Positions 4,311-59,549 of a stretch of DNA of 64,000 bases are shown here, in pieces. The stretch spans positions 32,599 through 96,598 of the forward strand of contig NZ_AULK01000006.1 of NCBI RefSeq assembly GCF_000419445.1, read 5' to 3'. The DNA comes from Gryllotalpicola ginsengisoli DSM 22003. GTDB taxonomy: Bacteria > Actinomycetota > Actinomycetes > Actinomycetales > Microbacteriaceae. The stretch's first letter is position 1, and the number at the start of each line of letters is the position of its first letter. The notes beneath the pieces were generated by a model that was not told the DNA's origin, did no database searches, and saw nothing but the letters and a program-made list of their open reading frames with translations. Both the position numbers and the translations under genes were made by a program.

Positions 4311-4910
4311 TCAGCCGACGACGACGCGGCGGCCCTCGAAGGCGCGGCCGAGGGTGACCTCGTCGGCGTACTCCAGGTCGCCGCCGACCGGCAGCCCCGA
4401 GGCCAGCCGGCTGACCTTGATCTCGAGGGTCTTCAGCAGGCGGCTCAAGTACGTCGCGGTCGCCTCGCCCTCGAGGTTCGGATCGGTGGCGATGATGACC
4501 TCCTCGACGGTGCCGTCGGCGAGCCGCTGCATGAGCTGGCGGATGCGCAGGTCGTCAGGCCCGATGCCGTCGATCGGGCTGATCGCCCCGCCGAGCACGT
4601 GGTACAGGCCGCGGAACTCGCGGGTGCGCTCGATCGCCACGACGTCCTTCGCTTCTTCGACGACGCAGATCAGGCTCTGGTTGCGGCGCGGGTCGCGGCA
4701 GATCGAGCAGCGGTCCTGCTCGCTGACGTTGCCGCAGATCTCGCAGAATTTCACCTTGTCGCGCACCGCCAGCAGCGTCTCGGCGAGCTTCGTGACGTCG
4801 AACGACTCGGTCTGCAGGATGTGGAACGCGATGCGCTGCGCCGACTTCGGACCGATGCCCGGCAGCCGACCCAGCTCGTCGATCAGGTCCTGGACGATGC
4901 CCTCGTACAT
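4311..4910 (-). CDS. recR: Recombination protein RecR
   Basis: 199 residues, the normal RecR length. It has the N-terminal helix-hairpin-helix ([20 protein letters not shown]), a four-cysteine zinc finger (CEIC...CSIC, about residues 57-72), a Toprim domain ([14 protein letters not shown] and [15 protein letters not shown]) and the conserved C-terminal Walker-like end. RecR acts with RecF and RecO to load RecA on gapped DNA. The ATG overlaps the dnaX stop by one base (TGATG), the usual dnaX-recR pairing, so translation is likely coupled. No YbaB/EbfC gene lies between them here. The gene is intact. Confidence 0.98.
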
Positions 4911-7558
4911 CAGCGGCCCCCGCTCTCAGGCAGCTGCTGCTCCTCGATGAAGCGCGCGTTCAGGATCTCGCGCACCACGGCCTCCCCGTAGCGCTTGGGC
5001 TGCTCGCTCGAGAACGTCGGGCCCCTGCGCGGGGCGGGCCGATTGTCGACGGATGCCTCGGGGGCGGGGCTCTTCGCGGGTGTCCCGGTCTCGATACGCG
5101 CCTGCGGCGCTACTCGACCAGCGGGGGTCGGCTGCTGCGGCGCTACTCGACCAGCGGGGGCGGGGGGTGCGGCGGGCGGCGCAATCCGTCCGGCGGGGGC
5201 CGCGGGAACCGCGTCGGGGTCGTCCTCGAAGGACGGCGCGTCGTCATCGCCCGGCACGTACTCGTCATCGGCGGGCGCGACGGTCGACCAGCCGTCGTCA
5301 TCGGTGGCGGCCGCGGCGACGGGTGCCGCCTCGCCCTCGACGCGGGCCGGAGCGGCCTCGGCCTCGACGAGCCGGGGGACCGCCTGCAGCTTCGGTCGCG
5401 GGGCCGGCTCGGGTTCGACCTCGGGCTTCGCCGCCGCGGCCGCTCCCCCGCTGCCCGGGATCGCCGCGACCGCCCAGCTCGTCACCGGGGTCGACGGTGC
5501 ACCGCTCTTCGGCGCCGGAACCGCGGCCACGCTCGCCGACGACGGATGCGACTCACCCTGCCCCTCGCGGACGGGAGCCTGCGAAGCGGGCGTCGGACCG
5601 CTCGCATTCGGGCGCGCCCCACTTCCCGACCCGACCGTAGGCCGCTCGTCATCGGCCGGAGACCGGGGCGCCGTCGGCGCCGCGGGCATGGCCTGAGGCG
5701 CTTCGGCCGCGGCCGGCCGCGCCGGCGGCGTCACCCCGAAACCCTCGCCCTTGAGGCTCTGCGCGAAGTCGGCCGCGGTCTTCGCCACGAACTTCACCCG
5801 CACGCCCAGCACCTTCTGGATCGCCTCGCGCAGCACATCGCTCACGTTCTGCGTCGCACCCGGCTGCGGCCGGAAGCTCGCGATGTCGTTCTCGCTCGGG
5901 AAGGTCAGCGTCAACACGTCGTTCTCGAACTTGCGCACCGTCGCCGTGACCACGACCATCCAGGCCGTCATCTTCACCGACTTCACCGTGTCGAGGATCT
6001 GCGGCCACGAATCCTTGATCTGCTGCACCGTGAGCGGACCGACCGGCTGCGGCGAGGCGGGCGCGGCCGGTTGCGCCGGCTTCGAACCCTGCTGCGCGGG
6101 CACGGATGCGCCGGGCGCCGGCTCGTCGTCGTATCCGGTGACCCCCGGGGTCGCCCAGCCGGCGGTGGCCGGGGGCTTCGAGACGGCGCTGCGCGCCTCC
6201 TCAGCCGACGGGGTGCGAGCGCTACGCGCCTCCTCAGCCGACGGGGTGGCTGGCACGGCGGGCTTCGAGACGGCGCTGGGCGCCTCCTCAGCCGACGGGG
6301 TGCGAGGGACGGCTGGCTTCGAGACGCCGCTGCGCGCCTCCTCAGCCAGCGGGGCGGGAGCGGCCGACCGCGGTGAGGCGGCGGCGGGTGAGGCATCCGT
6401 CACGCCGACGCGGCGCTCGAGCCGCTCGACGCGCGCCAGCGAACCCGCCTCGTCGGCGGACGGCACGAGGGCGCGGGCGATCATCAGCTCGAGGTGCAGG
6501 CGCGGCGACGTCGCGCCGGACATCTCGGTGAGAGCGTCATTGACGATGTCTGCGATGCGGGAGAGCTCGGCCGCGCCGAAGGAGCGCGCCTCGAGGCCCA
6601 TCCGCTCGAGCTCGTCGGCGGGGGTGCCGCGCAGCACGGTGGCCGCCCGCTCGGGACCGGCCGCCGCGATGATGATGAGGTCGCGCAGGCGCTCGAGCAG
6701 GTCTTCGACGAAGCGGCGGGGGTCTTGCCCGGTCTGGATGACCCGGTCGACCTGCTCGAACGCGCTCGATGCGTCGCGGGCGGCGAGCGCCTCGACCACG
6801 TCGTCGAGAAGCGCCGAGTGCGTGTACCCGAGCAGGGCGACGGCCCGCTCATAGCTGATCTCGTCACCCTCGGAGCCGGCGATGAGCTGGTCGAGGAGCG
6901 ACAGCGTGTCGCGCGGCGACCCGCCGCCGGCGCGCACCACGAGGGGCAGCACGCCGGGGGCGACGCGCATGCCCTCCTCCTCGGTCAGCTTCTGCACGTA
7001 GTCGAGCATCAGCGCCGGCGGCACCAGCCGGAACGGGTAGTGGTGGGTGCGCGAGCGGATCGTGCCGATGACCTTCTCGGGCTCGGTCGTCGCGAAGATG
7101 AACATGACGTGCTCGGGCGGCTCTTCGACGATCTTGAGCAGGGCGTTGAAGCCCTGCGGCGTCACCATGTGCGCCTCGTCGAGGATGAAGATCTTGTAGC
7201 GGTCGCGCGCGGGCGCGAAAATCGCCCGCTCGCGGATGTCGCGGGCGTCGTCGACGCCGTTGTGGCTCGCCGCGTCGATCTCGACGACGTCGAGCGAGCC
7301 CTGACCCCCGCGGCCCAGCTCGATGCAGCTGGGGCACTTGCCGCACGGGGTGTCGGTGGGGCCCTCGGCGCAGTTGAGGCAGCGCGCCAGGATGCGGGCG
7401 CTCGTGGTCTTGCCGCAGCCGCGCGGACCGGAGAAGAGGTAGGCGTGGTTCACCCTGTCGGTGCGCAGCGCCGTCATCAGCGGCTCGGTCACCTGAGACT
7501 GGCCGATCATCTCGGCGAAGGTCTCAGGCCGGTAGCGGCGATAGAGGGCGGTTACCAC
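4910..7558 (-). CDS. dnaX: DNA polymerase III subunits gamma and tau
   Basis: 882 residues from a GTG. The N-terminal AAA+ clamp-loader domain has Walker [10 protein letters not shown] (44-52), a four-cysteine zinc module (Cys63, 72, 75, 78), the DEAH Walker B and the expected lid and collar domains to about residue 370. A long Pro/Ala-rich linker and a tau-like tail follow. The linker contains repeated peptides of the type [13 protein letters not shown] (about residues 402-461), and the tail contains twin AGRVAPQ units (about 800-824). Both match hairpin repeats of classes B and A/D read in frame. Loads the beta clamp and couples the polymerase to helicase. Whether a shorter gamma form is made is not evident. 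Confidence 0.97.
5087..5160. repeat. Class A/D hairpin repeats inside dnaX (two units)
   Basis: One full unit (GGTCTCGATACG, stem CGCC-TGC-GGCG, then CTACTCGACCAGCGG) at 5087-5126 and a partial unit at 5131-5160. They lie in frame in the C-terminal part of dnaX, where they encode the paired AGRVAPQ peptides. The unit combines the left arm of class D with the right arm of class A, which links the two classes. Confidence 0.75.
6175..6354. repeat. Class B hairpin repeats inside dnaX (four units)
   Basis: Units at 6175-6213, 6219-6246 (5' part missing), 6262-6300 and 6316-6354 share GCTTCGAGACG, a GGCGC-TGC-GCGCC-like stem, then CTCCTCAGCC and a G tract. They match the intergenic class B units at 8879-9004, 16701-16771 and 46880-46948. 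In dnaX they are read in frame as EEARSAVSK-type peptides in the disordered linker. Confidence 0.8.
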
Positions 7559-7670
7559 TCGTCAATGCTAACGGCGGGGTGCGACATCCCGGCCCGCCCG
7601 CGCAGGGGTGTGGAATCGGCGCGCGGCGGGGTGTGGAAACGGCCGCAGACGGGACTCAGCGCGCGCCCGC

Positions 7671-8858
7671 TCAGAGACCGGAGATCACGGAGAGGGTCTG
7701 CCGGGCGATCTCCAGCTCCTCGTTCGTCGGCACGACGAGCACGGTGACGGGCGAGGCATCCGTCGAAATCACCCGCGTCTCGTGCGAGCGCACCGCGTTG
7801 CGGGCCGGGTCGAGCTCGATGCCCAGCCGCTCCAGTCCGGCGACCGAGAGGGCACGCAGCTCGGCGCTGTTCTCCCCCACTCCCGCTGTGAAGGAGAGCA
7901 CGTCGAGGCCGCCCAGCACCGCCAGATAGGCGCCGATGTAGAACCGGATGCGGTGGGCGTAGACGCGCTGCGCCAACTCGGCGCGCTCGTCCCCCTCCGC
8001 CGCGGCCTGCTGCATGTCGCGCGAATCCGCGTGGCCCGACAGCCCGAGCAGGCCGCTCCTCCTGTTCAGCAGGTCGTCGAGCTCGCGGAAGTCGAGGTGG
8101 CCGCGCCGGGCGAGGTGCAGCAGCACCGACGGATCCACGTCGCCGGAGCGCGTGCCCATCACGAGCCCCGCGAGCGGCGTCATGCCCATGCTCGTCTCGA
8201 CGGACTTGCCGCCGTCGATCGCGCAGGCGCTCGCCCCGTTGCCGAGGTGCAGCACGATCTGCTTCAGCTCCGCAAGCGGCCGGTCGAGGAACGCCGCCGC
8301 CTGCTCGGAGACGTACTTGTGCGAGGTGCCGTGGAAGCCGTAGCGCCGCACCCGGTAGCGCTGCGCCACCTCGGTGTCGATCGCGTAGGTATATGCCTCC
8401 GGCGGCATGGTCTGGTGGAACGCGGTGTCGAAGACGGCCACCTGCGGCAGCCCGGGGAACGCCTTCTCAGTCGCCTCGATGCCCTGCACCGCCCCGGGGT
8501 TGTGCAGCGGCGCGAGCTCGGACAGGTCGGAGATGTTGATCTTCACCAGGTGGTCGATCAGCGTCGGCTCGAAGAACCGCGCCCCGCCGTGCACCACGCG
8601 GTGGCCGACCGCGGCGAGCGCGTCCAGCGACGGCCCGTGCTCGCCGAATGCGTCGCGCATCACCGCCGAAGCCGCCTCGTGGTCGGCGACGTCGACGTCG
8701 CGCTCGAAGGTCTCGCCGCCCGCCGTGTGCTTCGCGTGGCCGTCGGGCAGGCCGATGCGCTCGATGAGGCCGCTCGCCTGCGTCTGCTCGCTGTCGGTGT
8801 CGATCAGCTGGTACTTCAGCGAGGACGAACCGCTGTTGACGACGAGGATCATGGGCAT
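7671..8858 (-). CDS. ackA: Acetate kinase
   Basis: 395 residues, full length. Family signatures are present: ILVVNSGSSSLKY at the N-terminus, VVHGG, the substrate region NPGAVQGI, FDTAFHQTMP, YGFHGTSH, HLGNGASACA, GTRSGDVDPSV and FTAGVGENS near the C-terminus. It converts acetyl-phosphate and ADP to acetate and ATP in the cytoplasm. It is the last gene of the minus-strand set xfp-pta-ackA and is separated from pta by three class B hairpin units. Context points to ATP recovery from acetyl-phosphate made by the phosphoketolase. The gap below it (7559-7670), before dnaX, shows nothing notable. Confidence 0.98.
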   Translation of the reverse strand: MPMILVVNSGSSSLKYQLIDTDSEQTQASGLIERIGLPDGHAKHTAGGETFERDVDVADHEAASAVMRDAFGEHGPSLDALAAVGHRVVHGGARFFEPTLIDHLVKINISDLSELAPLHNPGAVQGIEATEKAFPGLPQVAVFDTAFHQTMPPEAYTYAIDTEVAQRYRVRRYGFHGTSHKYVSEQAAAFLDRPLAELKQIVLHLGNGASACAIDGGKSVETSMGMTPLAGLVMGTRSGDVDPSVLLHLARRGHLDFRELDDLLNRRSGLLGLSGHADSRDMQQAAAEGDERAELAQRVYAHRIRFYIGAYLAVLGGLDVLSFTAGVGENSAELRALSVAGLERLGIELDPARNAVRSHETRVISTDASPVTVLVVPTNEELEIARQTLSVISGL

Positions 8859-8878
8859 CGGATGCTCCGTTCCGTCGC

Positions 8879-9004
8879 GGCTTCGAGACGCGCTGCGCGC
8901 TCCTCAGCTATCGGGGGCGTCACGGCTTCGAGACGCGCTGCGCGCTCCTCAGCCACCGGGGGTGCGCCGGCTTCGAGACGCGCTGCGCGCTCCTCAGCCA
9001 TCGG
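8879..9004. repeat. Class B hairpin repeats between pta and ackA (three units)
   Basis: Three units (8879-8916, 8924-8962, 8969-9004), each GGCTTCGAGACG, stem GCGC-TGC-GCGC, CTCCTCAGC, then a G-rich end. They are spaced about 45 nt apart. The third reaches into the 3' end of pta and supplies its TGA stop. Three consecutive hairpins between cotranscribed genes could tune mRNA decay or termination; this is inferred. Confidence 0.85.
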
Positions 9005-11129
9005 CGCCGACCGCCTGCGCCTGGATCGCGGTGATCGCGATGGTGTTCACGATGTCGTCGACGAGCGCCCCGCGGGAGAGGTCGTTCACCGGCTTGCGCA
9101 GCCCCTGCAGCACCGGTCCGATCGCCACGGCGCCCGCCGAGCGCTGCACTGCTTTATAGGTGTTGTTGCCGGTGTTGAGGTCGGGGAAGATGAACACGGT
9201 CGCGCGGCCGGCGACCTTCGAGCCGGGCATCTTCGCCGCCGCCACGACCGCGTCGGCGGCGGCGTCGTACTGCAGCGGCCCCTCCACGAGCAGTTCCGGC
9301 GCGCGCTCGCGCACCAGCTCGGTCGCCGCCCGCACCTTCTCGACGTCGGCCCCCGAGCCCGACTCGCCGGTCGAGTACGACAGCATCGCCACGCGCGGTT
9401 CGATGCCGAACTGCTCGGCGGTCGCGGCCGAGGAGACGGCGATGTCGGCGAGCTGCTCGGCGGTCGGGTCGGGGATCACCGCGCAGTCGCCGTAGACGAG
9501 CACCCGGTCGGCAAGCGCCATCAGGAACACGGAGGAGACGACCGACACGCCTGGCTTCGTCTTGATGATCTCGAACGCCGGCCGGATCGTGTGCGCGGTC
9601 GTGTGCGCGGCACCCGAGACCATGCCGTCGGCGAGGCCGAGCTGCACCATCATGGTGCCGAAGTACGAGACATCCGTCACCGTGTCGAGGGCGCGCTCGA
9701 GCGTCATACCCTTGCTCGCGCGCAGCCGCGTGTACTCCTCGCCGAAGCGCTGCCGCAGCTCGGAGCTCACCGGGTCGATCACCGCCGCGGCGTCGAGGTC
9801 GAGGCCGAGCGCCGAGGCACGCCCGCGCACCGCGTGCTCGTCGCCGAGGATGGTCAGCTGCGCGATGTCCCGCTCGATCACCCGCGACGCGGCGTGCAGG
9901 ATGCGGTCGTCGCCGCCCTCGGGCAGCACGATGTGCCGGCGCTGCGCCCGAGCCCGCTCGATCAGCCGGTACTCGAACATCAGCGGGGTGACCACCGGCG
10001 AGGCCTCGACCTCGAGGGCGTCGAGCAGCTCGATGTGGTTCACGCTGCGGTCGAACAGGTCGATCGCGCGCTGCTGCTTGCGCGGCGAGTCGGCGCCGAG
10101 CCGCGTGCGCGACTGGTTCACCCGCACGGTCGTGTCGTAGGTGCCCCACGGCGCCTCGATGATCGGCAGCGGCGATCCGATGCCGGCCAGCAGCCGGCGC
10201 ATCGCCTCGCTGAGCGCGAAGCCGCCGTTCATCACGATCGCGCTCACGGAAGGGAAGGTGCCCGCCTGGTAGGCCGATAGCACCGCGAGCAGCACCTCGC
10301 TGCGATCGCCGGGGACGACGACCACGGCGCCCTCGATGAGCCGGGTGAGCACGTTCTCCATCGACATGCCCGCGACCACGACGCCGAGCACCTCGCGCTC
10401 GAGCAGCTGCGGGTCGCCCGAGATGAGCCGGCCGCCCACCGAGGCGAGCACGGCCTGCACCGTCGGGGCGACCAGCAGCGGGTCCTCTGGCAGCACCCAC
10501 ACGGGCCGCGCGGGCAGGCCGGCCGCGTCCGGCGACGAGCCGACGGATGCCTGCACGGCGGCTCGGATCTGCGTCAGCTGCTCGGGGTCGGCCCGGTTCA
10601 CGACGAGCCCGAGCAGCGCGGCGTGCTCCTGCTTGAGCTCCCCCATCGCCACCTCGGCCAGCTGCCGCACCTGCGCGGGCGTGCGCGCCGACGACGTGCC
10701 GAGCAGGTCGCCCTCGGCGGCGCGGCCGCCGACGACGAGCAGCACCGGGGCACCGAGATTGGCGGCGATGCGGGCGTTGTAGCTGAGCTCGGTCGGCGCC
10801 CCGACATCCGTGTAGTCGCTGCCCACGATCACGACCGCGTCGCAGCGCGCCTCGACCGCTTTGTAGCGCGCGACGATGCGGGAGAGCGCCGACTCGGGGT
10901 CGGCGTGCACCTCGTCATAGGAGACCCCGACCGCCTCGTCGTAGCCGAGCTCGGCCGTCTGATTGGCGAGCAGCCACTCTAGCACGTAGTCGCGCTCCGC
11001 GGTCGAGCGGGCGATGGGGCGGAACACCCCGACCCGCGCGACCTGCCGGGTCAGGGCGCGCAGCACTCCGAGCGCGACGGTGGACTTGCCCGTGTGGCCC
11101 TCCGCCGAGGTGATGTAGACCTGCTTCAT
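8994..11129 (-). CDS. pta: Phosphate acetyltransferase, long type
   Basis: 711 residues. Domains in order: an N-terminal P-loop domain of BioD/CobB type (ITSAEGHTGKSTVALG, residues 7-22), a middle DRTGG domain, and the C-terminal PTA/PTB catalytic domain from about residue 390 (HIVLPEGGDDRIL, GLADGMVSGAAHTTAHT, VFIFPDLNTGN, GPVLQGLRKPVNDLSRG). It interconverts acetyl-CoA and acetyl-phosphate. It starts 13 nt after the xfp stop with only a weak ribosome-binding site, so coupling to xfp is likely. The final codons and the stop lie inside a class B hairpin repeat, so the C-terminal ADG residues are repeat-derived. Confidence 0.97.
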   Translation of the reverse strand: MKQVYITSAEGHTGKSTVALGVLRALTRQVARVGVFRPIARSTAERDYVLEWLLANQTAELGYDEAVGVSYDEVHADPESALSRIVARYKAVEARCDAVVIVGSDYTDVGAPTELSYNARIAANLGAPVLLVVGGRAAEGDLLGTSSARTPAQVRQLAEVAMGELKQEHAALLGLVVNRADPEQLTQIRAAVQASVGSSPDAAGLPARPVWVLPEDPLLVAPTVQAVLASVGGRLISGDPQLLEREVLGVVVAGMSMENVLTRLIEGAVVVVPGDRSEVLLAVLSAYQAGTFPSVSAIVMNGGFALSEAMRRLLAGIGSPLPIIEAPWGTYDTTVRVNQSRTRLGADSPRKQQRAIDLFDRSVNHIELLDALEVEASPVVTPLMFEYRLIERARAQRRHIVLPEGGDDRILHAASRVIERDIAQLTILGDEHAVRGRASALGLDLDAAAVIDPVSSELRQRFGEEYTRLRASKGMTLERALDTVTDVSYFGTMMVQLGLADGMVSGAAHTTAHTIRPAFEIIKTKPGVSVVSSVFLMALADRVLVYGDCAVIPDPTAEQLADIAVSSAATAEQFGIEPRVAMLSYSTGESGSGADVEKVRAATELVRERAPELLVEGPLQYDAAADAVVAAAKMPGSKVAGRATVFIFPDLNTGNNTYKAVQRSAGAVAIGPVLQGLRKPVNDLSRGALVDDIVNTIAITAIQAQAVGADG

Positions 11130-11142
11130 CCGGCGGTGCGGC

Positions 11143-13584
11143 CTACTCGTTGTCGCCGCCGGTGTCGTTGGTCGCCGCCTTCGTGCTGCCCTTCCACGAC
11201 CAGGTCGCGACCTCCGGGATGTCCTCGCCGTGCTCGCGCGTGTACAGCCGGGCCTTGAGGCGCGTGTCGATCATCTCCTGCCGCAGCGCGCCGTAGCGGC
11301 CCGCGAGGCCCGGCACCCGATCGATCACGTCGATCACCAGGTGGTAGCGGTCGAGGTCGTTGAGCATCACCATGTCGAACGGGGTCGTGGTGGTGCCGTT
11401 CTCCTTGTATCCGCGCACGTGCAGGTTGACGTGGCCGCGCCGACGGTAGGTGAGCCGGTGGATCAGCCACGGGTAGCCGTGGTAGGCGAAGATGACCGGT
11501 TTGTCGGTGGTGAACAGCGCGTCGAAGTCGGCGTCGGAGAGCCCGTGCGGGTGCTCGTGCTCGGGCTGCAGCTTCATCAGGTCGACCACGTTGATCACGC
11601 GGATCTTCAGCTCGGGGATGCGCTGCTGCAGCAGCTCGCTGGCCGCGAGCACCTCGAGGGTCGGGATGTCGCCGGCCGCGGCGAGCACCACGTCGGGCTC
11701 CTCGCCGGGCACCTCGGTGCCGGCCCACTCGAAGATGCCGAGGCCGCGCGTCATGTGCGCCACGGTCTCCTCGACGGTGAGCAGGTTGGGCTGCGGCTGC
11801 TTTCCGGCGACCACCACGTTGACGTAGTTCACCGACCTCAGGCAGTGGTCGTAGGTCGACAGCAGCGTGTTCGCGTCGAACGGCAGGTACACGCGCACCA
11901 CGTCGGCCGACTTGTTCACGACGTGGTCGATGAAGCCCGGATCCTGGTGGCTGAAGCCGTTGTGGTCCTGCCGCCAGACGTGGCTGGAGAGCAGGTAGTT
12001 GAGGCTCGCGATCGGCCGGCGCCACGGGATGTGCCGGGTGACCTTCAGCCACTTGGCGTGCTGGTTGAACATCGAGTCGATGATGTGGATGAACGCCTCG
12101 TAGCTCGTGAACAGCCCGTGCCGGCCGGTGAGCAGGTAGCCCTCGAGCCACCCCTCGCACTGGTGCTCGGAGAGCACCTCCATCACCCGCCCCACCCGGG
12201 CCAGGTGCTCGTCGATGGGGCGGATCTCGCCCGCGAACTGCTTGTCGGTGACCGAGTAGACCGGCGGCGCGAGCCGGTTCGAGGCGGTCTCGTCGGGGCC
12301 GAAGATGCGGAAGTTGTGCGGGTTGTCCTCGATCACCGTGGCCAGCCACTCGCCGAGCACGCGCGTTGCCTCGCTGTTCGTCGCGCCCGGGCTCGGCACG
12401 TCGACGCCGAACTCGCGCCAGTCGCGCAGTTTGAGATCCTTGCGCAGCAGGCCGCCGTTGGTGATCGGATTCGCGGACATGCGGCGCGTGCCGGAGGGGG
12501 CGATCGCCGTGGCATCCGCCACCGGCTTGCCGGCCTCGTCGAACAGTTCCTCCGGCTTGTACGAGCGCAGCCACGCCTCGAGCAGCGCGGTGTGCTCGGC
12601 CGTGTCACGCGCGTTGGCGAGCGGCACCTGGTGCGCGCGCCAGGTGTTCTCCACCGGCAGGCCGTCGATCTCGGGCGGGCAGGTCCAGCCCTTGGGGGTG
12701 CGGAAGATGATCATCGGCCACTTCGGGCGGCCCTCGAGCGTGCCATCCGCCGCCTGCTGTTTGATCTCGGCGATCTCGTTCAGCACCTGGTCGAGCACCT
12801 CGGCGAACCGCTTGTGCACCGCGATCGGGTCTTCGCCGTCGAAGCCGCCCTCGACGAGGTACGGGTGGTGCCCGTAGCCGCGCATCAGGTCGAACAGCTC
12901 CTCCTGCGGGATGCGGTCGAGCACGGTCGGGTTGGCGATCTTGTAGCCGTTCAGGTGCAGGATCGGCAGCACCACCCCGTCTTGCAGCGGGTCGACGAAC
13001 TTGTTCGAGTGCCAGCTGGTCGCCAGCGGCCCCGTCTCGGCCTCGCCGTCGCCGACGATCGCGGCGACGAGCAGGTCGGGGTTGTCGAAGGCGGCGCCGT
13101 AGGCGTGGCTGAGCGAGTAGCCGAGCTCGCCGCCCTCGTGGATGGAGCCGGGGGTCTCGGGCGCCACGTGGCTCGGGATGCCGCCGGGGAAGGAGAACTG
13201 CTTGAAGAGCTTCTTGAGGCCCGCCTCCGACTGGTCGATGTCGGAGTACACCTCGGAGTAGGTGCCGTCGAGGTAGGCGCTCGCCACCAGGCCCGGGCCG
13301 CCGTGGCCGGGGCCGGTGACGTAGATGGTGTTCAGATCGCGCTCCTGGATGGCGCGGTTCAGGTGCGCGTAGAGGAAGTTCAGACCGGGCGTGGTGCCCC
13401 AGTGGCCGAGCAGCCGGGGCTTGATGTCGTCGATCGAGAGGGGGCGGCGCAGCAGGGGGTTGTCCAGCAGGTAGATCTGGCCGACGCTCAGGTAGTTCGC
13501 CGCCCGCCACCACGTGTCGATCAGGCGGATCGTCTCATCCGAGACGGGAGCCGGCTCGCGAAGCTTCCAGGCTGATTCAGACAT
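11143..13584 (-). CDS. xfp: Xylulose 5-phosphate/fructose 6-phosphate phosphoketolase
   Basis: 813 residues from an ATG at 13584 with GGGGAGG just upstream. The frame is open to 13941, but that extension runs through the SRP RNA and is rejected. Thiamine-diphosphate enzyme signatures are [61 protein letters not shown] and [11 protein letters not shown]. It splits xylulose 5-phosphate (and often fructose 6-phosphate) with phosphate to acetyl-phosphate plus glyceraldehyde 3-phosphate (or erythrose 4-phosphate). With pta and ackA downstream it forms a complete carbon-saving route from pentose phosphates to acetyl-CoA or acetate plus ATP. Dual-substrate use cannot be read from sequence. Confidence 0.97.
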
Positions 13585-13769
13585 TGACGTCCTCCCCTTG
13601 AGGAAGGCACCGTCGACCGGCGGCACCATCGCCAGCCTAGGGAGGCGCGAGAGGCGGGCGCTAGTGATTTCTGGCCCGCCCGACCCGGGCTCGAATGTGA
13701 TAACGGATGCCTCGTGCCGGGGTTCCTGGGCGCGGTCAGCGCTGCGGTCGCGCAGCGGCCGGCGCAAAG

Positions 13770-13862
13770 AAAAGACCCCTCGCGCACCCGCCAGAGCCCG
13801 GTTACCCTTGCTGCGTTTCCGCCCTGGGGGAGTTGGCCTGGATGGCGCCACGCGAGGAGCCG
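13770..13862 (-). ncRNA. ffs: Signal recognition particle RNA, bacterial small type
   Basis: The minus strand contains the conserved 4.5S hairpin core CAGGGCGGAAACGCAGCAAG, continuing GGTAACCGGGCTCTGG, which is the Ffh-binding internal loop and tetraloop region of actinobacterial SRP RNA. Outer strands CTCCTCGCG and GCGCGAGGGG close the helix. A TACAAT -10 box lies at 13874-13869, about 7 nt before the start. The end is T-rich (GTCTTTTCTTT). The transcript ends are estimates within a few bases. Confidence 0.92.
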
Positions 13863-13907
13863 AAGACCATTGTACGGGACGTGCGGCGGGCTGCACGCTT
13901 GGGGCGA

Positions 13908-13973
13908 TTGCGCTACTCGCACCGACACCCGCTACCGCCACAGCAGTCGCGCGTGTCCGAATGAGTAGCGCAA
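13908..13973. repeat. 11-bp inverted repeat upstream of ffs
   Basis: Arms TTGCGCTACTC (13908-13918) and GAGTAGCGCAA (13963-13973) are perfect complements separated by 44 nt. They sit 35-100 nt upstream of the ffs promoter and before the tRNA-Ser promoter, between divergent RNA genes. The arms resemble the CTACTC part of class D hairpins, but the rest does not match. Function unknown. Confidence 0.5.
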
Positions 13974-13983
13974 CGTCTCCGCG

Positions 13984-14014
13984 GGTCGACTCGCGCGCAG
14001 CGCGAAGGGAGACC
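13984..14014. repeat. Class A hairpin repeat, single unit
   Basis: One inverted class A unit: GGTCGAC, stem TCGCGC-GCA-GCGCGA, then AGGGAGACC. It lies between the ffs upstream region and tRNA-Ser. The stem sequence differs from other class A units but stays self-complementary. Confidence 0.65.
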
Positions 14015-14086
14015 GCGACCGGGGGCGGGCGGGAGCATTCGAATCGTCCGGTAGAATCGTCGGGTTGCCCGCCGCGGCGGGTGCAC

Positions 14087-14171
14087 GGAGGATTCGCCTA
14101 GTGGCCTATGGCGCACGCTTGGAAAGCGTGTTGGGTGAAAGCCCTCGGGGGTTCGAATCCCCCATCCTCCG
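14087..14171 (+). tRNA. tRNA-Ser (anticodon GGA)
   Basis: 85 nt. Acceptor stem GGAGGAT (14087-14093) pairs with ATCCTCC (14164-14170), and the discriminator is G. The anticodon stem CACGC/GCGTG encloses loop TTGGAAA with anticodon GGA. A long variable arm follows, as expected for tRNA-Ser, then the T arm GGGGG-TTCGAAT-CCCCC. The 3' CCA is only partly encoded. A TAGAAT-like -10 lies at 14052-14057. It reads UCC and UCU codons. Confidence 0.97.
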
Positions 14172-14381
14172 CCGAATACTTCTTTGACCGCCTGCGCGCT
14201 ACATCGACCCGTGCGGCCGCGAGAAGCGCGGCCCCGACAGCGGCGCTACTTCAGACAGTGGCTGCTTGGGCAGGGCACAGTTCCCACCTTGCGCCTCGCG
14301 ATCGCTTCGCGTCTCCCCCGCACCGCGCACGCCTCGTACTGGGGCTACAACCGCAATGTTGCACGGCGCTACAAACGTTAG

Positions 14382-14576
14382 TTGGGGCTCGACAGAGCAC
14401 CCGGCACCCCCGCGCTCGCCACCGCACTGGCAGCACTCGTCGACCCGGACGTCCACATCGTCGCCGGCTTGGTCGATGCGCGCGAACGCGCCGCGCTCGG
14501 CAACGGCCCTCGCGTGGACAAGGCGTGCCGATTTCGCCAACGGACCACGCACAGCCTGGAGAAAACACGCACATGA
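14382..14576 (+). pseudogene. Possible gene remnant downstream of tRNA-Ser
   Basis: Between the tRNA and the lipoprotein gene there are 401 bases without a recognisable gene. Within them, the frame from 14382 to about 14530 has strongly GC-rich third positions and a protein-like composition (RAPGTPALATALAALVDPDV, then HIVAGLVDARERAALG). It begins only at a TTG without a ribosome-binding site and degrades after position 14530. It may be the broken tail of a lost gene. No family was recognised. Bases 14172-14381 show nothing definite. Confidence 0.25.
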
Positions 14577-15088
14577 GCAAGCCGCTTCCCACCCTCGCCG
14601 CAGTTCTGCTGGCATCCCTCGCTCTGACGGGCTGCACCGTAAACGTCAACGAGGCGTCCGCCGCGAAACACAGCGCAACAGCGACGGCGGAGCAGACACG
14701 CCAGGCGAGCCCAACCCAAACGGCGACATCCGACGCCGACACAGACACCGACACCGAGACGGATGCGGGCGCGACGACGTCCGACGACAGCGCGAGCAGC
14801 GCTTCGAAAGATGCTGCGTTTGACGCAGCGCTCACCACGGCGGTCGACGGCATCGATGCCACGAACTACGTCGACCTCACTCAAATGACCAGCTACCAGT
14901 CCGCGGCGAAGTTGCTATGCGTCAAGCTCAACGACGGAGTCTCAATCGATTCACTCATCGGCACGGCTTCGCAGTCGAACGAGACGGAGGTGTTGATGCT
15001 GCTGCTGCTTGCTTCGGCCACCGCCGACGATTCCTACTGCCCCGGTTACCAAGACGCCGTTCGGGCTTACGCAGACGCCAACAACTGA
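14573..15088 (+). CDS. Putative lipoprotein, DUF732-like
   Basis: 171 residues. A signal peptide with lipobox LALTGC (Cys near residue 20) is followed by a low-complexity Thr/Asp/Ala/Ser linker (TSDADTDTDTETDAG) and a small C-terminal domain of about 85 residues with two cysteines (LLCVKL, DSYCPGY). Size and paired cysteines resemble DUF732-type actinobacterial lipoproteins, but this is a weak match. The frame is open further upstream through the tRNA, so the ATG at 14573 (after GGAGAAAAC) is chosen. Codon use is less GC-rich than its neighbours. It lies in a tRNA-flanking patch that may be acquired. Confidence 0.65.
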   Translation: MSKPLPTLAAVLLASLALTGCTVNVNEASAAKHSATATAEQTRQASPTQTATSDADTDTDTETDAGATTSDDSASSASKDAAFDAALTTAVDGIDATNYVDLTQMTSYQSAAKLLCVKLNDGVSIDSLIGTASQSNETEVLMLLLLASATADDSYCPGYQDAVRAYADANN

Positions 15089-15268
15089 CGTACCAGGAGT
15101 CGGTGCCGGGCATCGACGATTCGGCCGCGCACAGGAGGCGCTCGAAGACCGGCGCGGCTCCAATACGATCGGCGGTCGGTGTCCACGTGTCGCCCGGGCA
15201 CAGACGGTGCGATCGGGCACAACTGCTGCAGCATCCGTATGCCCGATCGCAACACCTACCGCGAATCG

Positions 15269-15475
15269 CTACGGCAGCTTCTCGAAGACCATCGTCGCCT
15301 GGATCCGGTCGCCACCGCCGAAGCCCTTGCTGCCCGACGCCACCGTCGAGATGGTGTGCAGTCGGTAGCCGCGATCCGCCTGCGCGTTGATCGCCTTCTC
15401 GAGCTCCGTCAAATTGCCGGATCCCGTGCCCCACAGCTTCTCCTTGAGAATCACTTGAAGCACCACGTAATTCAT
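15269..15475 (-). CDS. DUF4177-like small protein
   Basis: 68 residues from an ATG at 15475 preceded by AGGGGTGG. The longer open frame to 15577 has no good start signal. The sequence MNYVVLQVILKEKLWG, then LEKAINAQADRGYRLHTIST and ATMVFEK, follows the DUF4177 pattern: a short alpha-beta fold with the conserved N-x-x-G-x-x-L-H/V strand and a final V-F-E-K strand. Function is unknown for the family. It is alone between the plus-strand lipoprotein and acyP. The 180 nt between it and the lipoprotein gene show nothing clear. Confidence 0.7.
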   Translation of the reverse strand: MNYVVLQVILKEKLWGTGSGNLTELEKAINAQADRGYRLHTISTVASGSKGFGGGDRIQATMVFEKLP

Positions 15476-15581
15476 GCCGTCCACCCCTGACCTTCCTCGT
15501 TGAGATTCCTGCCACGGTACGTGGGCCGGGCGATCCGGCTCTCGGCCGAGTTCGGGGGACACGCGAAGCAGGCGCACGCCG

Positions 15582-15857
15582 TCAGGGGCGGATGTCGAAG
15601 CGGCCGTGGTCGAGGTCGTGGGTCGGCACCTCGGTGGTGTCGACCGAGGCGACGGCGGCGCCGGCCGGCCCGCGGTCGAGCCAGGCGAGCATCCGTTCGA
15701 CGGCGATCTCGTCGCCCTGCACCTCGGCCTCGACGGCGCCGTCGGGGCGGTTGCGGACCCAGCCCGTGACTCCGAGTTCGCGGGCCCGGTCGCGCGCCGC
15801 CATGCGGAACCCGACCCCCTGAACCTGCCCGGTCACCACCGCGTGCACGCGTCTCAT
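15582..15857 (-). CDS. acyP: Acylphosphatase
   Basis: 91 residues, typical length. The active-site loop GQVQGVGFR supplies the phosphate-binding Arg (residue 18), and WVRNRPDGAVEAEVQG holds the catalytic Asn. It hydrolyses acyl phosphates such as acetyl-phosphate or carbamoyl-phosphate in the cytoplasm. It is a single gene on the minus strand, downstream of a lipoprotein gene with an 84-nt gap. Given the acetyl-phosphate-producing operon nearby, a role in limiting acyl-phosphate levels is possible but not shown. Confidence 0.95.
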   Translation of the reverse strand: MRRVHAVVTGQVQGVGFRMAARDRARELGVTGWVRNRPDGAVEAEVQGDEIAVERMLAWLDRGPAGAAVASVDTTEVPTHDLDHGRFDIRP

Positions 15858-15941
15858 GCCCTCGATTCTGCCGCGTGCACCGGGCGCCCGCGCTACCCCG
15901 GGCGCGCCGCGGTGGCCCGGCCGCCCGCCTGCACCGAGCCC

Positions 15942-16463
15942 CTACCCCGCCGGCGCCTGCTTCGCGCACAGGCCGGAGAGCGTGAGGGTCGCCGTCGCGC
16001 TCGTCCACACCGCGTCCACCTGCTTGTCGGAGCCGACCAGCGGAATCTGCCCGCGCCCCGGCCGCTCCGGCGCGACCTCGAGGCCGAGCTTGCGCCACGC
16101 GGCGCCGATGCGCGACTCGACCCTGCGACCCGCGTCGGCGGAGAGCCCCGAGTTCCCCGCCACGTGCAGCGTGAGCGTGGGCCGCTGCCCCACCGTCTGC
16201 ACCGGCGCGCCGAGCTGCGTGGCCGAGCAGTCCGCGGTGTCGGCGAACGACTCCTGCGCTCCCCCGCTGAACGCGACGCCCGAGCCATAGCTCCACGAGC
16301 CGAAGCCCGACGCCGTCATGGCGGCGTCGGCCACGACGATCATGCGGTCGAGCGACGCCTGCGACTCACTGGCGGTGGCGAGCGACGGATGCTGCGTGCA
16401 TCCGCTCACCGCGACGGCCACGGCACACGCGACGGCGGCGAGCGCCGGCCGCCGCCCGCGCAT
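15942..16463 (-). CDS. Putative lipoprotein of unknown function
   Basis: 173 residues. An Arg-rich N-terminus and hydrophobic core lead to lipobox VAVSGC (Cys near residue 22), so it should be a membrane-anchored lipoprotein. The mature domain contains a likely disulfide pair (TADCSATQ, LSGLCAKQ) and an alternating beta pattern. No family was recognised. It starts 3 nt after the stop of the small membrane protein gene upstream (16466-16633), suggesting cotranscription. The gene looks intact and has neighbour-like codon use. Confidence 0.75.
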   Translation of the reverse strand: MRGRRPALAAVACAVAVAVSGCTQHPSLATASESQASLDRMIVVADAAMTASGFGSWSYGSGVAFSGGAQESFADTADCSATQLGAPVQTVGQRPTLTLHVAGNSGLSADAGRRVESRIGAAWRKLGLEVAPERPGRGQIPLVGSDKQVDAVWTSATATLTLSGLCAKQAPAG

Positions 16464-16465
16464 CG

Positions 16466-16633
16466 TCAGCTCTTGCTGAAGACGTGGATCGGCAGCGCGA
16501 ACGAGAGCGCGATCGCCAGGATGCCGCAGAAGAACAGCAGCGACTCGACGCCCTGCACCTCGGGGGCGATGGCGAACAGCACGAAGCCGCCGACGAAGAA
16601 GATTCCGGCGATGACGAGCTTGATGACGGTCAT
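16466..16633 (-). CDS. Small two-helix membrane protein (55 residues)
   Basis: An ATG at 16633 follows a very strong GGAAGGAGG site. The translation begins MTVIKLVIAGIFFVGGFVLF and continues through a short loop (APEVQGVES) to a second hydrophobic stretch LLFFCGILAIALSFALPI, ending FSKS. Two transmembrane helices fill almost the whole protein. No family was recognised. It lies just upstream of the lipoprotein gene in the same direction with a 2-nt gap, so the two are probably one transcript. Confidence 0.75.
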   Translation of the reverse strand: MTVIKLVIAGIFFVGGFVLFAIAPEVQGVESLLFFCGILAIALSFALPIHVFSKS

Positions 16634-16700
16634 GGATCCTCCTTCCGCCAGCCTACCGGCCCGGCGGCGGGCCGGCCGACGAGGGATCCGCAGGGACCAC

Positions 16701-16771
16701 CCTTCGAGACGCGCCCTGCGGGCGCTCCTCAGGGACCACCCTTCGAGACGCGCCGTGCGGGCGCTCCTCAG
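16701..16771. repeat. Class B hairpin repeats downstream of the MFS gene (two units)
   Basis: Two tandem units at 16701-16734 and 16740-16771: CCTTCGAGACG, stem GCGCCC-TGC-GGGCGC (one arm base changed in the second), then CTCCTCAG. They lie 10 nt beyond the MFS stop on the minus strand, a position fitting a transcript-end hairpin. Confidence 0.8.
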
Positions 16772-16780
16772 TGAGCGAGG

Positions 16781-18046
16781 CTAATGCGCGAGCTCGGGGA
16801 CGGTCTTGGGGCGCACCACGAACCAGAACGCGACGACCGAGACGACGGAGGTGCAGATCATCACCTCGCCCATCGGTGCGCCGGACGAGACGCCGAGCAG
16901 GCCGACGATCGGCGAGATGAGCCCGGCGAGCACGAACTGGCCGGCGCCGAGCAGCGAGGCGGCCGTGCCGGCCTCGTGCGGGTGCGAGTTCATCGCGAGC
17001 ACTCCGACGCAGGGGAACCCGAAGCCGCAGGCGCAGATGAAGAACCACAGCGGCACCATCACGCCCCACTCGCCGAGGCCGAGCGCACTGTCGACGTAGA
17101 TGGCGGCGGATGCGAGCAGCATCGCCGCCGTCGAGAACGCGAGGATCCACTGCGGGCCGACCCAGCGGGTGATCCGGCCGGCGGTCTGCACGCCGATGAT
17201 GATGCCGATCGAGTTGACGGCGAAGAGCAGGCCGTACTGCTGGGCGGAGAATCCGTAGACGTCCTGGAACAGGAAGGTGCTGGAGGACAGGTAGCAGAAC
17301 AAACCGGAGAAGTTCATCGCGCCGACGAGCACGATGCCGACGTAGACCCGGTCGGAGAGCACGGCCTTGTAGCGCTGGCTCGTGGTGGAGTGGCCGGAGT
17401 CGTGGCGGCGCTCGACGGGCAGGGTCTCGACGATCCAGAGCCACACGCACAGGACGACGAAGGCGCCGTAGGCGGCGAGCACCCAGAAGATTCCGCGCCA
17501 CGGCATGATCAGCAGGAACTGCGAGCCGAGCACCGGCGCGAGGACAGGGGCGAGGCCGTTGACGAGCGCCAGGTTCGAGAGCATCTTGACCAGCGGCCGG
17601 CCGCCGAACAGGTCGCGCACCATGGCCTGCGCGACGACGCCGCCGGCCGCGGCGCCGAAGCCCTGCAGGAAGCGGAAGGCGCCGAGCACCTCGACGTTCG
17701 GCGCGAGCGCCGCACCCAGGCACGCGGCGATGTGCAAGGCGGTGGCGAGGAGGAGCGGCAGGCGGCGGCCGACCCGGTCGCTCCACGGGCCGACGAGCAG
17801 CTGGCCGACGCCGAAGCCCACCGTCGTCGCGGTGAGGGTCAGCTGCACGATCGCCGTCGTCGTGTCGAAGTCGGTCTGCAGCGTCGGCAGCGACGGCAGG
17901 TACATGTCCATCGTGAACGGCCCGAGCGCGGTCAGCGCGCCGAGGATCAGGATGTACGAGAGCCGCTGGCGCCCGGTGAGCGAGTCGCCCGGGTGGACGA
18001 TCTTGATGGAACCGGTGGGCGTGAGGGGTGCGGTGGCGGTGGTCAA
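16781..18046 (-). CDS. MFS multidrug exporter, Bcr/CflA family
   Basis: 421 residues with 12 predicted membrane helices. The first helix region ILGALTALGPFTMDMYLPSLP and the loop PWSDRVGRRLPLL (motif A-like) fit the Bcr/CflA drug-proton antiporter family. The start is a TTG at 18046 (TTGACCACCGCC) with GAGGA upstream; no ATG is available without losing helix 1 context. It should expel hydrophobic drugs or other small molecules from the cytoplasm. A 12-bp palindrome and a tandem-repeat block lie upstream. Substrate cannot be told from sequence. Confidence 0.93.
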   Translation of the reverse strand: MTTATAPLTPTGSIKIVHPGDSLTGRQRLSYILILGALTALGPFTMDMYLPSLPTLQTDFDTTTAIVQLTLTATTVGFGVGQLLVGPWSDRVGRRLPLLLATALHIAACLGAALAPNVEVLGAFRFLQGFGAAAGGVVAQAMVRDLFGGRPLVKMLSNLALVNGLAPVLAPVLGSQFLLIMPWRGIFWVLAAYGAFVVLCVWLWIVETLPVERRHDSGHSTTSQRYKAVLSDRVYVGIVLVGAMNFSGLFCYLSSSTFLFQDVYGFSAQQYGLLFAVNSIGIIIGVQTAGRITRWVGPQWILAFSTAAMLLASAAIYVDSALGLGEWGVMVPLWFFICACGFGFPCVGVLAMNSHPHEAGTAASLLGAGQFVLAGLISPIVGLLGVSSGAPMGEVMICTSVVSVVAFWFVVRPKTVPELAH

Positions 18047-18157: not shown

Positions 18158-18311
18158 TCGTCACGAAGTGCTCATTGCTATCGGCAATAGGTGCATTGCC
18201 GACGATTGGGGCGGGGCGGCCCCGACGACTCGTCACGAAGTGCTCGCCGGATCGAGAAACGCGTCGAAAAGCGACGAATGCAAAAGCGACGAATGCAAAA
18301 GTGACGAATGG
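18158..18311. repeat. TCGTCAC motif cluster and 15-bp tandem repeat
   Basis: The 16-mer TCGTCACGAAGTGCTC occurs twice (18158-18173 and 18230-18245), each with the palindrome TCGT-C-ACGA. Downstream, the 15-mer AAAAGCGACGAATGC is repeated exactly (18267-18281, 18282-18296), with a third variant copy at 18297-18311. The reverse of the tandem unit carries TCGTCGC/TCGTCAC, so all five copies share one core. The block lies between the ROK gene and the MFS promoter and is more A-rich than its surroundings. Confidence 0.6.
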
Positions 18312-45775: not shown

Positions 45776-46870
45776 TCACGGCGTGTCGGCGAGCGGCACC
45801 GGGGCGGGGCGCGGCGCCGTGCTGGCGAGCGTCACCGTCGAGCGGGAGGCCGAGGCGGAGAGCACCGCCTCCATGATCTCCAGCACGTGGAACGCCAGCT
45901 CAGCCGAGGCGCGGTGCGGGGTGCCGGCCGCGATCGCCGCCGCCATGTCGGCCAGCCCGTACCCGCGGCCGGCGTCGCGGTAGCCCGCCGACTCGGGCAC
46001 GGTGCGCCACGCTTCCGACCCCGCCGCGAACACCTCGACCGGGTCCGAGAAGCGGTTCGGGTCGGGCACCGCCAGCGTGCCCTCCGTGCCGTACAGCTCG
46101 AACAGCGGCGCGCGGGACGCCCACACCTCGAAGCTCACGGTGACCGTCGAGATCGCGCCGCCCTCGTGCTCAAGCAGGGCGGTGACGTGCGTGTCGACGT
46201 CGACGGGCAGCACGGTGCCGGCGAGGGGGCCCTTTCCGACGACCCGCTCGCGCCCCGAGCGCGAGGCGAGCCCCGACACCTTGACGACCGGCCCGAGCAG
46301 GGTCACGAGGCTGGTCAGGTAGTACGGCCCCATGTCGAACAGCGGGCCGCCGCCGGGCTGGTAGTAGAACCCGGGCGCCGGGTGCCAGCTCTCGTGGCCG
46401 GGCGACGACCAGTGCACGGATGCGCCGACCGGCTGCCCGATCACCCCGTCATCCACCAGCTTGCGGGCGGTCTGGATGCCGGTGCCGAGCACGGTGTCGG
46501 GCGCGCTGCCGACCCGCAGCCCGCCGGTCTGTGCGTCGAGCAGCGGCCGCGCCTCGGCCGTGGAGAGCCCGAGCGGCTTCTCTGCGAAGACGTGCTTGCC
46601 GGCCGCGAGTGCCCGCAGCCCGATCTCGACGTGGGCGGCCGGGATGGTCAGGTTGATCACCGCGTCGACGTCGTCGGAGGCGAGCAGCTCGTCGACCGTG
46701 CGCGCGTCGACGCCGTGCTCGGCGGCCACCGTGGCCGCCCGCGCCTGGTCGAGGTCGGCGACCGCCGTGAGCTTCAGCTTGGGCAGCTTCTCCAGGCTCG
46801 CGAAGTACTGGGCGCTGATGACGCCCACCCCGATCATGCCGACGCGGAAGGGGCGCTGCGGCTCAGGCAT
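45776..46870 (-). CDS. Gfo/Idh/MocA-family oxidoreductase (first)
   Basis: 364 residues. N-terminal Rossmann motif VGMIGVGVISAQYF, then the family's EKPLG with the catalytic-site Lys, and the C-terminal beta-sheet domain (GGPLFDMGPYYLTSLVTLLGPV). It should oxidise or reduce a sugar or cyclitol hydroxyl with NAD(P). The gene starts with an 8-nt overlap inside the end of the thuA-like gene, making it the last gene of a four-gene minus-strand set with the TIM-barrel protein and a second dehydrogenase. The substrate is unknown. The context suggests keto-sugar chemistry. Confidence 0.92.
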   Translation of the reverse strand: MPEPQRPFRVGMIGVGVISAQYFASLEKLPKLKLTAVADLDQARAATVAAEHGVDARTVDELLASDDVDAVINLTIPAAHVEIGLRALAAGKHVFAEKPLGLSTAEARPLLDAQTGGLRVGSAPDTVLGTGIQTARKLVDDGVIGQPVGASVHWSSPGHESWHPAPGFYYQPGGGPLFDMGPYYLTSLVTLLGPVVKVSGLASRSGRERVVGKGPLAGTVLPVDVDTHVTALLEHEGGAISTVTVSFEVWASRAPLFELYGTEGTLAVPDPNRFSDPVEVFAAGSEAWRTVPESAGYRDAGRGYGLADMAAAIAAGTPHRASAELAFHVLEIMEAVLSASASRSTVTLASTAPRPAPVPLADTP

Positions 46871-47693
46871 ACGTCGCCCCCTTCGAGACGCCGCCACGCG
46901 GCTCCTCAGGGAACGCCTTCGAGACGCCGCCACGCGGCTCCTCAGGGGACGTGGCGCGCGCGGCCCAGAGCATGCCGCGCTCGATGATGGCGCGCACGTG
47001 CGGCTCCTGCACGATCTCGAGCCGGTGGCCCGGGGCCGAGACGAAGATGCGGCCCTTGCCCCACTGCCGGGTCCAGATCGCGGGCGAGGTGACCGGGCGG
47101 TTCCACGCATCCCACGGCCGCACCGCCTGGGTCGTGGTCGCCAGCACGTCGTTGTATTCGTCGGAGAGCACCCAGTACTGCTCGGTGACCAGGTCGAAGT
47201 CGCGGACGCCCTGCGTGATCGGATGCGTCTTGCCGAGCTCGGTGATGTGCACCGTGTACGGCAGGTAGTTGTCGGACTGCTCGCCCTTCCGCAGCTCGGG
47301 GGCGATGCCGGCGTGGTGGGCGAACTGGCCGCCGATCATGTGCAGGTAGTCGGCGTTGTCGCGGTACGAGTCGGCGATGCCGCCGTGCCATCCGGCCATG
47401 CCGGTGCCGTTCAGCACCGCGCGCTGCAGGCCCGCGAACTCGTCGCTGCCGATGGTGCTCATGGTGTTCACCTGCACGATCAGGTCGACCGTGTGCATGA
47501 ACGTCTCGTCGGCGTAGATCGCGGTGCCCTCCTCGACGCGCACCTCGAAGCCGTGCTCGGTCAGGAACGGGATGAAGAACTCGGTCGTCTCGACCGGCTG
47601 GTGGCCGTCCCAGCCGCCGCGCACGATCAGGGCCTGGCGCGTGGGCTCGGTGGCGCCGGTGGGCACGGATGCCGGCGTCGTCGGCTCACTCAT
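46863..47693 (-). CDS. ThuA-like protein with repeat-encoded tail
   Basis: 276 residues. The ThuA domain (residues 18-245) has the GATase1-like fold with [55 protein letters not shown] and [14 protein letters not shown]. ThuA proteins work with sugar 3-dehydrogenases in trehalose and related disaccharide use. The last 27 residues are twin [10 protein letters not shown] peptides encoded by two class B hairpin repeats (46880-46948), so the tail is repeat-derived. It overlaps the neighbours on both sides by 8 nt and is clearly in one operon with the dehydrogenases. Confidence 0.9.
46880..46948. repeat. Class B hairpin repeats inside the thuA-like gene (two units)
   Basis: Units at 46880-46911 and 46916-46948: CCTTCGAGACG, stem GCCGC-CAC-GCGGC, CTCCTCAGGG. 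They form the 3' end of the thuA-like reading frame and are read as [10 protein letters not shown] twice. The same frame of class B units is used in dnaX. Confidence 0.85.
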
Positions 47694-58279: not shown

Positions 58280-59466
58280 CTGTCACCCCCACCAAGGCCG
58301 ACCGCTTCTCGTTCGGTCTCTGGACCGTCGGCTACACCGGCAACGACCCGTTCGGCGGCCCGACCCGCCCCGCCCTCGACGTCGTGCACGTCGTCGAGAA
58401 GCTGAACGAGCTCGGCGCCTACGGCCTGACCTTCCACGACGACGACCTGTTCGCCTTCGGCTCCACCGAGGCCGAGCGCCAGAAGCAGATCGACCGCCTG
58501 AAGCAGGCGCTCGCCGACACCGGCCTGATCGTGCCGATGGTCACCACCAACCTCTTCTCGGCCCCCGTCTTCAAGGACGGCGGCTTCACCTCCAACGACC
58601 GCCAGGTGCGCCGCTTCGCGCTGCGCAAGGTGATCCGCCAGCTCGAGCTCGGCGTCGAGCTCGGCGCCAAGACCTTCGTCATGTGGGGCGGCCGCGAGGG
58701 TGCCGAGTACGACTCGGCCAAGGACATCCAGGCCGCGCTCGAGCGCTACCGCGAGGCCGTGAACCTGCTCGCGCAGTACGTCACCGACAAGGGCTACGAC
58801 ATCAAGTTCGCCATCGAGCCGAAGCCGAACGAGCCGCGCGGCGACATCCTGCTGCCGACCGTGGGCCACGCGCTCGCCTTCATCGACTCGCTCGAGAAGC
58901 CCGAGCTGTTCGGCCTCAACCCCGAGGTCGGCCACGAGACCATGGCGGGCCTCAACTTCGCCGCCGGCATCGCCCAGGCGCTGTACCACGGCAAGCTCTT
59001 CCACATCGACCTGAACGGGCAGCGCTCGATCAAGTACGACCAGGACCTGGTCTTCGGCCACGGCGACCTGCACAACGCCTTCGCGCTCGTCGACCTGCTC
59101 GAGCACGGCGGCCCCGCCGGCGGCCCGGCCTACGAGGGTCCGCGCCACTTCGACTACAAGCCGAGCCGCACCGAGGACGAGGACGGCATCTGGGAGTCGG
59201 CCAAGGCCAACATGGCCAACTACCTGCTGCTCAAGGAGCGCGCCGACGCCTTCCGCGCCGACCCCGAGGTGCAGGAGGCGCTCGAGGCCGCGAAGGTCGC
59301 CGAGCTGTCCGTGCCGACGCTGGGCGAGGGCGAGAGCTACGAGCAGCTGCTGGCCGACACCTCGGCGTACGAGGAGTTCGACGCCGACGCGTACTTCGGC
59401 GGCAAGGGCTTCGGCTTCGTTCGCCTGCAGCAGCTGGCCACCGAGCACCTCATGGGCGCGCGCTGA
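58276..59466 (+). CDS. xylA: Xylose isomerase
   Basis: 396 residues, class I (actinobacterial) length. Active-site elements: [12 protein letters not shown] (His and Asp), [25 protein letters not shown] (metal Glu), [11 protein letters not shown] (Glu and His), [20 protein letters not shown] (Asp cluster) and [12 protein letters not shown]. It converts D-xylose to D-xylulose in the cytoplasm. GAAGGAC precedes the ATG. The start overlaps the xylanase stop, but xylA also has its own promoter-operator. Two class D hairpins separate it from xylB. Confidence 0.98.
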
Positions 59467-59467
59467 A

Positions 59468-59549
59468 CCCCGTTGGTTGAGTAGCCCGCGCAGCGGGCGT
59501 ATCGAAACCCCGTTGGTTGAGTAGCCCGCTCCGCGGGCGTATCGAAACC
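59468..59549. repeat. Class D hairpin repeats between xylA and xylB (two units)
   Basis: Two tandem 42-nt units: CCCCGTTGGTTGAGTA, stem GCCCGC-GCA-GCGGGC (first) or GCCCGC-TCC-GCGGGC (second), then GTATCGAAACC. The stem is kept while the loop changes. They lie between cotranscribed genes, like the class B units between pta and ackA, and may adjust xylB expression. Confidence 0.85.

Follow-up and report, generated by a model that had tools for sequence, protein, structure and literature searches.

The analysed window, a 64,000-nucleotide stretch of the genome of Gryllotalpicola ginsengisoli DSM 22003, contains dnaX (DNA polymerase III gamma/tau; 4910..7558, reverse strand), which encodes 882 aa and was identified from its open reading frame and family matches (TIGR02397, E = 7e-117). 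The AAA, lid and gamma3 (domain III) matches stop at residue 365, and a weak match to DnaX_C, the C-terminal domain of DnaX, covers residues 507–620. The linker in between (365 to 507) holds four in-frame copies of a hairpin unit, designated class B, all on the forward strand and antisense to dnaX. In coding order they start at codon 404 (~6317..6354), codon 422 (~6263..6300), codon 440 (~6219..6246) and codon 451 (~6176..6213); three are complete, while the one at codon 440 is truncated, lacks the TTCGAGACG box and is read as SAEEARSAR. The first-pass annotation had described four in-frame units here and the type of peptide that they encode, and both observations hold, with nearly identical peptides from the four copies and the described type at codons 404, 422 and 451. 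The spacing of the copies (54, 54 and 33 bp) makes joint duplication of a unit and its spacer the most likely way in which the array expanded. That annotation had overlooked units of a second class, A, in the dnaX tail (~5088-5160): a complete one in the disordered C-terminal tail (5088..5127, forward), with a diverged counterpart in the congener G001, and a truncated one (5133..5160, forward) with the peptide PAGRVAP.

An AlphaFold model of DnaX was built with 24 DnaX sequences. It gives confident domains at residues ~181-384 and 511-604, and the ATPase region is poorly modelled. Residues 388-499 and most of 608-882 mostly have pLDDT values below 50 and no secondary structure, and the linker 388-499 is thus predicted to be unstructured.

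Further units lie elsewhere in the window. The two intergenic occurrences of class B DNA that had been noted earlier are real: three tandem forward-strand copies with a period of 45 in the gap between an ackA-like and a pta-like gene (~8880..9005), and two with a period of 39 behind an MFS-like gene (16702..16772, forward). Two more class B units (46881..46949, forward) contribute in-frame codons to the C-terminal end of the gene predicted at 46863-47666 (reverse), two class A units stand in tandem between genes (59466..59549, reverse), and hairpin copies of a third class, C, occupy the window start (1-118), class C units often having AGCGG after them. A 15-bp tandem repeat, AAAAGCGACGAATGC, present in 2.9 copies at 18267-18310, is unrelated to the hairpins.

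Across the host genome (71% GC, 23 contigs), of which 2.81 of 2.94 Mb (95.5%) was examined, 165 class A and B units (32 A, 133 B) were found in the examined portion, and none in the shuffled genome. A looser scan of two contigs returned 71-89 units, against 0-1 in shuffles. At least 74 further copies belong to class C, whose layout is TCCATTCACG-stem-CGTGAGTCGACC, and all classes together give more than 230 hairpin copies. Every class is a hairpin in which fixed boxes flank a variable, self-complementary stem; in class B, the boxes are TTCGAGACG and CTCCTCAG and the unit is ~40 bp long. Rfam 15 covariance models gave no match on the units in window positions 4900-17000 or at eight other loci.

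The stems vary while remaining paired. At the four variable stem positions of 30-nt class B units, Watson-Crick pairs occupy 108 of 112 cells in coding copies and 82 of 84 in intergenic ones, and the covariation consists of G-C/C-G swaps at a level that no shuffle of the 3' letters reached. Since coding copies pair as well as intergenic ones, the nucleic acid hairpin appears to be the thing that is copied or kept, and the coding copies are probably young.

Neighbouring units within 120 bp share an orientation in 71 cases and are opposed in 12. Two units of one cluster have the same stem in 35% of pairs, as compared with 2.4% for units of different clusters. Intergenic units prefer spacers between convergent genes, occupying 25 of 239 of these versus 30 of 1241 other spacers (p = 1.7e-7).

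Our own gene finder, based on codon usage, predicted 2562 genes at 91% coding, so some of the N- or C-terminal in-gene cases may be mis-called. With these predictions, 57 units fall within ~27 genes in both orientations, making dnaX one case within a genome-wide pattern. Class A and B account for 44 units lying wholly within 20 genes, among them dnaX, carA, rlmC and genes for a metallophosphoesterase, an M20 peptidase, a SNF2 helicase, a GH3 glucosidase, an anthranilate synthase-like protein, a type III polyketide synthase and a LuxR-type response regulator; the other 13 are class C units in ten genes, three of which also host class A or B. The rlmC gene (L069:13220-14608, reverse strand) carries five tandem in-frame copies of the class C tail part, with the peptide EAGPRWSTHG. 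Translation of the units is suggested by the open frames and the family matches around them.

Where family matches delimit the domains of the host proteins, the units often fall between them. In the GH3 protein, the N domain ends at residue 271, the C domain begins at 354 and the units run from 277 to ~330; in the response regulator, the receiver ends at 123, GerE begins at 192 and the units run from 154 to ~180; and in the anthranilate synthase-like protein, the chorismate-binding domain ends at 397, GATase begins at 516 and four units run from 420 to ~472. The structure model of the M20 peptidase is poor (pLDDT 54.5) and lends weak support to an unstructured insert.

Inside genes, all 17 array periods are divisible by three; for arrays between genes, this is true of 15 of 54 (p = 5e-8). 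Class B units in genes use five reading frames over the two orientations, and the sixth, which contains TGA, is never used. The first-pass annotation had held that the units in dnaX always adopt the frame avoiding this TGA. The dnaX frame is indeed free of it, but reflects no special choice: of the three antisense frames, one contains TGA, dnaX is read in one of the remaining two, and the rest of the open frames are all used in other genes. Genes contain 23 of 82 class A and B clusters, a strong depletion given that 91% of the genome is coding.

Comparison with three congeners (G001, G002 and G003) bears directly on the proposal that a copied intergenic repeat had entered dnaX at a disordered region. 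Over the N-terminal 386 aa of DnaX they are 88-94% identical to the host, and the array is absent: DnaX of G001 combines class A units with a remnant of class B in sense orientation, both units of G002 are class A (one is intact, the other decayed), and no units were found in DnaX of G003. This is the pattern that had been predicted in advance, with conserved flanks and repeats that are missing or different in relatives, and together with the predicted disorder of the linker it supports the proposal. In the fragmented G003 genome (L024), the DnaX frame continues into an unrelated-looking Ig-like C-terminal sequence in place of the usual tail, possibly because the contig is chimeric.

Other host genes show similar differences. 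Two congeners lack the stretch of about 50 residues that three units encode in the M20 peptidase, and a short stretch in the third may be a unit remnant. G001 is also without the four-unit linker of the anthranilate synthase. In the loop where RlmC of the host carries units, G001 has an independent class B unit read in another frame, and the unit-bearing loop of the metallophosphoesterase contains an independent class A unit in G002 and none in G001.

We surveyed 84 dnaX loci, four from the genus and 80 named ones (G002 and L113 are one record). Units occur in the dnaX linker or tail of at least five Microbacteriaceae lineages, namely the host, G001, G002, Herbiconiux sp. SYSU D00978 and the MAG RYN_99; Cryobacterium sp. 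BB307 is a weaker case, and in genera further removed this region of dnaX holds other units. The scan gave 17 matches in 206 kb of dnaX frames versus 11 in 674 kb of flanks, and none in shuffled loci. Because the units differ in class, orientation and frame, the DnaX linker peptides differ among relatives, and we did not see one peptide preserved over diverged DNA in many genera, the result named in advance as favouring a protein-level origin. The dnaX gene of Cryobacterium sp. Y50 (L176:5001-7689) has four in-frame stops and an open frame of 761 aa, a disruption that may be a frameshift or an assembly error.

Class B is expanded in the host genome and scarce elsewhere in the family, with 122 exact copies in the host, 22 in G077, 10 in G001 and 0-8 in the others of 150 genomes. 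In G077, a member of another Microbacteriaceae genus and the genome outside Gryllotalpicola in which coding copies were examined, the genes trmD, ileS, hrpA and pheT (L268, L269, L273, L278) hold in-frame class B units, which make up 4 of the 21 in that genome. Class A occurs in 27 of 120 family genomes with up to 57 copies. Beyond the family, 45 and 27 copies are present in two genomes that belong to one other family of the same taxonomic class. Many IMG/VR contigs of varied GC (L282-L314, L315-L394; 37-74% GC) carry related hairpins in which the two box pairs are unchanged but the inner and outer stems differ; CATCC/GGATG is an example of the outer arms in class B-like copies, and 7-nt loops of the kind AAAAGCA are frequent among class A-like ones. 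These appear to form a broad hairpin superfamily for which Rfam has no model.

The closest known parallel is with Rickettsia palindromic elements (RPEs), for which in-frame palindromes in protein genes are established (PMC10969869). Like RPEs, the units described here are palindromes that lie between genes and also in frame within many unrelated protein genes, where RPEs are translated as extra segments (PMC10969869), and orthologues in close relatives lack the inserts of the M20 peptidase, anthranilate synthase and metallophosphoesterase. The main RPE families differ in being ~150 bp long and alphaproteobacterial, whereas our units are ~40 bp, have other boxes, form head-to-tail arrays and come from a GC-rich actinobacterium. 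The main text of Di Nocera et al. 2013 describes intragenic GTAG and CGTC REPs in many species, including in replication and repair genes, suggests location in linkers and loops as a reason why they are tolerated, and mentions the CGTC end of the RPE-4/6 type (PMC3733652). As characterised there, REPs resemble our units: they are hairpins of 20-40 bp, found for the most part in the gaps between convergent genes or 3' of genes, and some lie in frame within genes (PMC3733652). That main text names neither Actinobacteria nor dnaX, and its supplementary list could include the latter (PMC3733652). Our literature searches for actinobacterial REPs found nothing relevant, and queries with the unit sequences gave unrelated work only.

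Several of the features tested set the units apart from both REP superfamilies. Beside the stem, class A has CTAC/GTAG at 96-100%, class B has GGAG, and class C is without GTAG. CGTC REPs are described in the same main text as having an unpaired CGTC at one end and a stem of 8-9 bp starting with A-T pairs (PMC3733652), whereas classes B and C lack both tags and class B stems of the 26- and 30-nt units begin with a G-C pair in 100% of cases, as do those of 23 of 25 intergenic 28-nt units, the next class B positions being G-C/C-G. By the tags of classes B and C, array orientation and the lack of a RAYT, the family is a member of neither the GTAG nor the CGTC superfamily, although it works like RPEs and intragenic REPs. 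The many dispersed hairpins with variable yet paired stems also recall REPIN/RAYT systems, from which they differ in forming tandem same-orientation arrays, not inverted pairs, and in having no Y1 transposase in the host and almost none in the family. MITEs are recognised by terminal inverted repeats shared with an insertion sequence and by target-site duplications. The units resemble non-autonomous repeats able to fuse to host reading frames (PMC10969869), but they are ~40 bp long and lack long terminal inverted repeats, and no related insertion sequence was identified in a non-exhaustive search.

These comparisons bear on how the units came to be in dnaX. If they were ordinary GTAG-type REPs moved in trans by a RAYT (Y1 tyrosine transposase), the GTAG of class A and the preference for convergent intergenic sites, which REPs share according to the main text of PMC3733652, would be accounted for. 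The GGAG of class B does not fit, nor does the head-to-tail arrangement (71 of 83 pairs), given the prevailing head-to-head dimers that the same text reports for GTAG REPs (PMC3733652). Moreover, the Y1_Tnp family (PF01797) was detected in 5 of 14 control genomes, in 1 of 120 family genomes and not in the host, which disfavours RAYT mobilisation and makes this reading distinctly unlikely. An origin at the protein level, in which a useful repeat peptide arose in DnaX and its DNA came to resemble intergenic units secondarily, would agree with the single peptide that the four dnaX copies almost encode. It is barely credible in view of the unrelated peptides that class B DNA yields in unrelated genes, the different peptides of related DnaX linkers and the stem pairing maintained at the DNA level. 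A compositional accident of a proline/alanine-rich, low-complexity linker in a 71% GC genome can be practically discounted from the near-absence of units in shuffled sequence.

The position of the array at the gamma/tau junction raises a functional reading, in which the hairpins are kept for mRNA pausing or frameshifting that yields a short gamma-like product. Past codon 366, the -1 frame meets its first five stops at codons 405, 423, 441, 445 and 452 (window 6174-6347), all at or beside units, so a -1 slip would terminate within the linker and give a gamma-type product. Nevertheless, no slippery site was identified in dnaX, congeners and most relatives are without such an array there, the same units occupy genes with no such need, and the TGA comes with the unit in any case; retention for this function is therefore very improbable. 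We also think unlikely, if somewhat less so, a broader scenario in which the hairpin superfamily spreads in actinobacteria, and perhaps several other phyla, without a Y1 transposase, repeatedly rebuilding the linkers of essential proteins, with the -1-frame TGAs of dnaX also helping to set the gamma/tau boundary.

We favour, with a probability of about 0.86, the reading that the dnaX repeats are copies of a genome-wide palindromic family that spreads at the DNA level, grows locally in tandem and is filtered by frame within genes. In the proposed pathway, a process acting on DNA would place copies of the units at new loci, most frequently in the gaps between convergent genes, and the units would then multiply at a locus through local tandem duplication, a step supported by the matching of stems within clusters and the excess of head-to-tail neighbours. 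Inside genes, units would persist only if they keep the frame, contain no stop and lie mostly in a disordered linker or loop; the frame rule, the depletion in genes and the linker positions show such a selective filter. The surviving units would be translated as spacer peptides, probably with a neutral role since no peptide is conserved, and would later decay through point mutation; unit decay is seen in the congeners.

Intragenic palindromes are already known in other phyla; the present family differs in its occurrence in Actinobacteria, its head-to-tail arrays, the absence of a Y1/RAYT transposase and its failure to fit either named REP superfamily. The findings extend protein-coding palindromes to a GC-rich actinobacterium in which more than a quarter of the class A and B insertion loci are in genes and essential proteins gain linker length. 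Related genera offer empty, fresh and decayed sites, a series in which the passage from intergenic DNA to protein can be measured.
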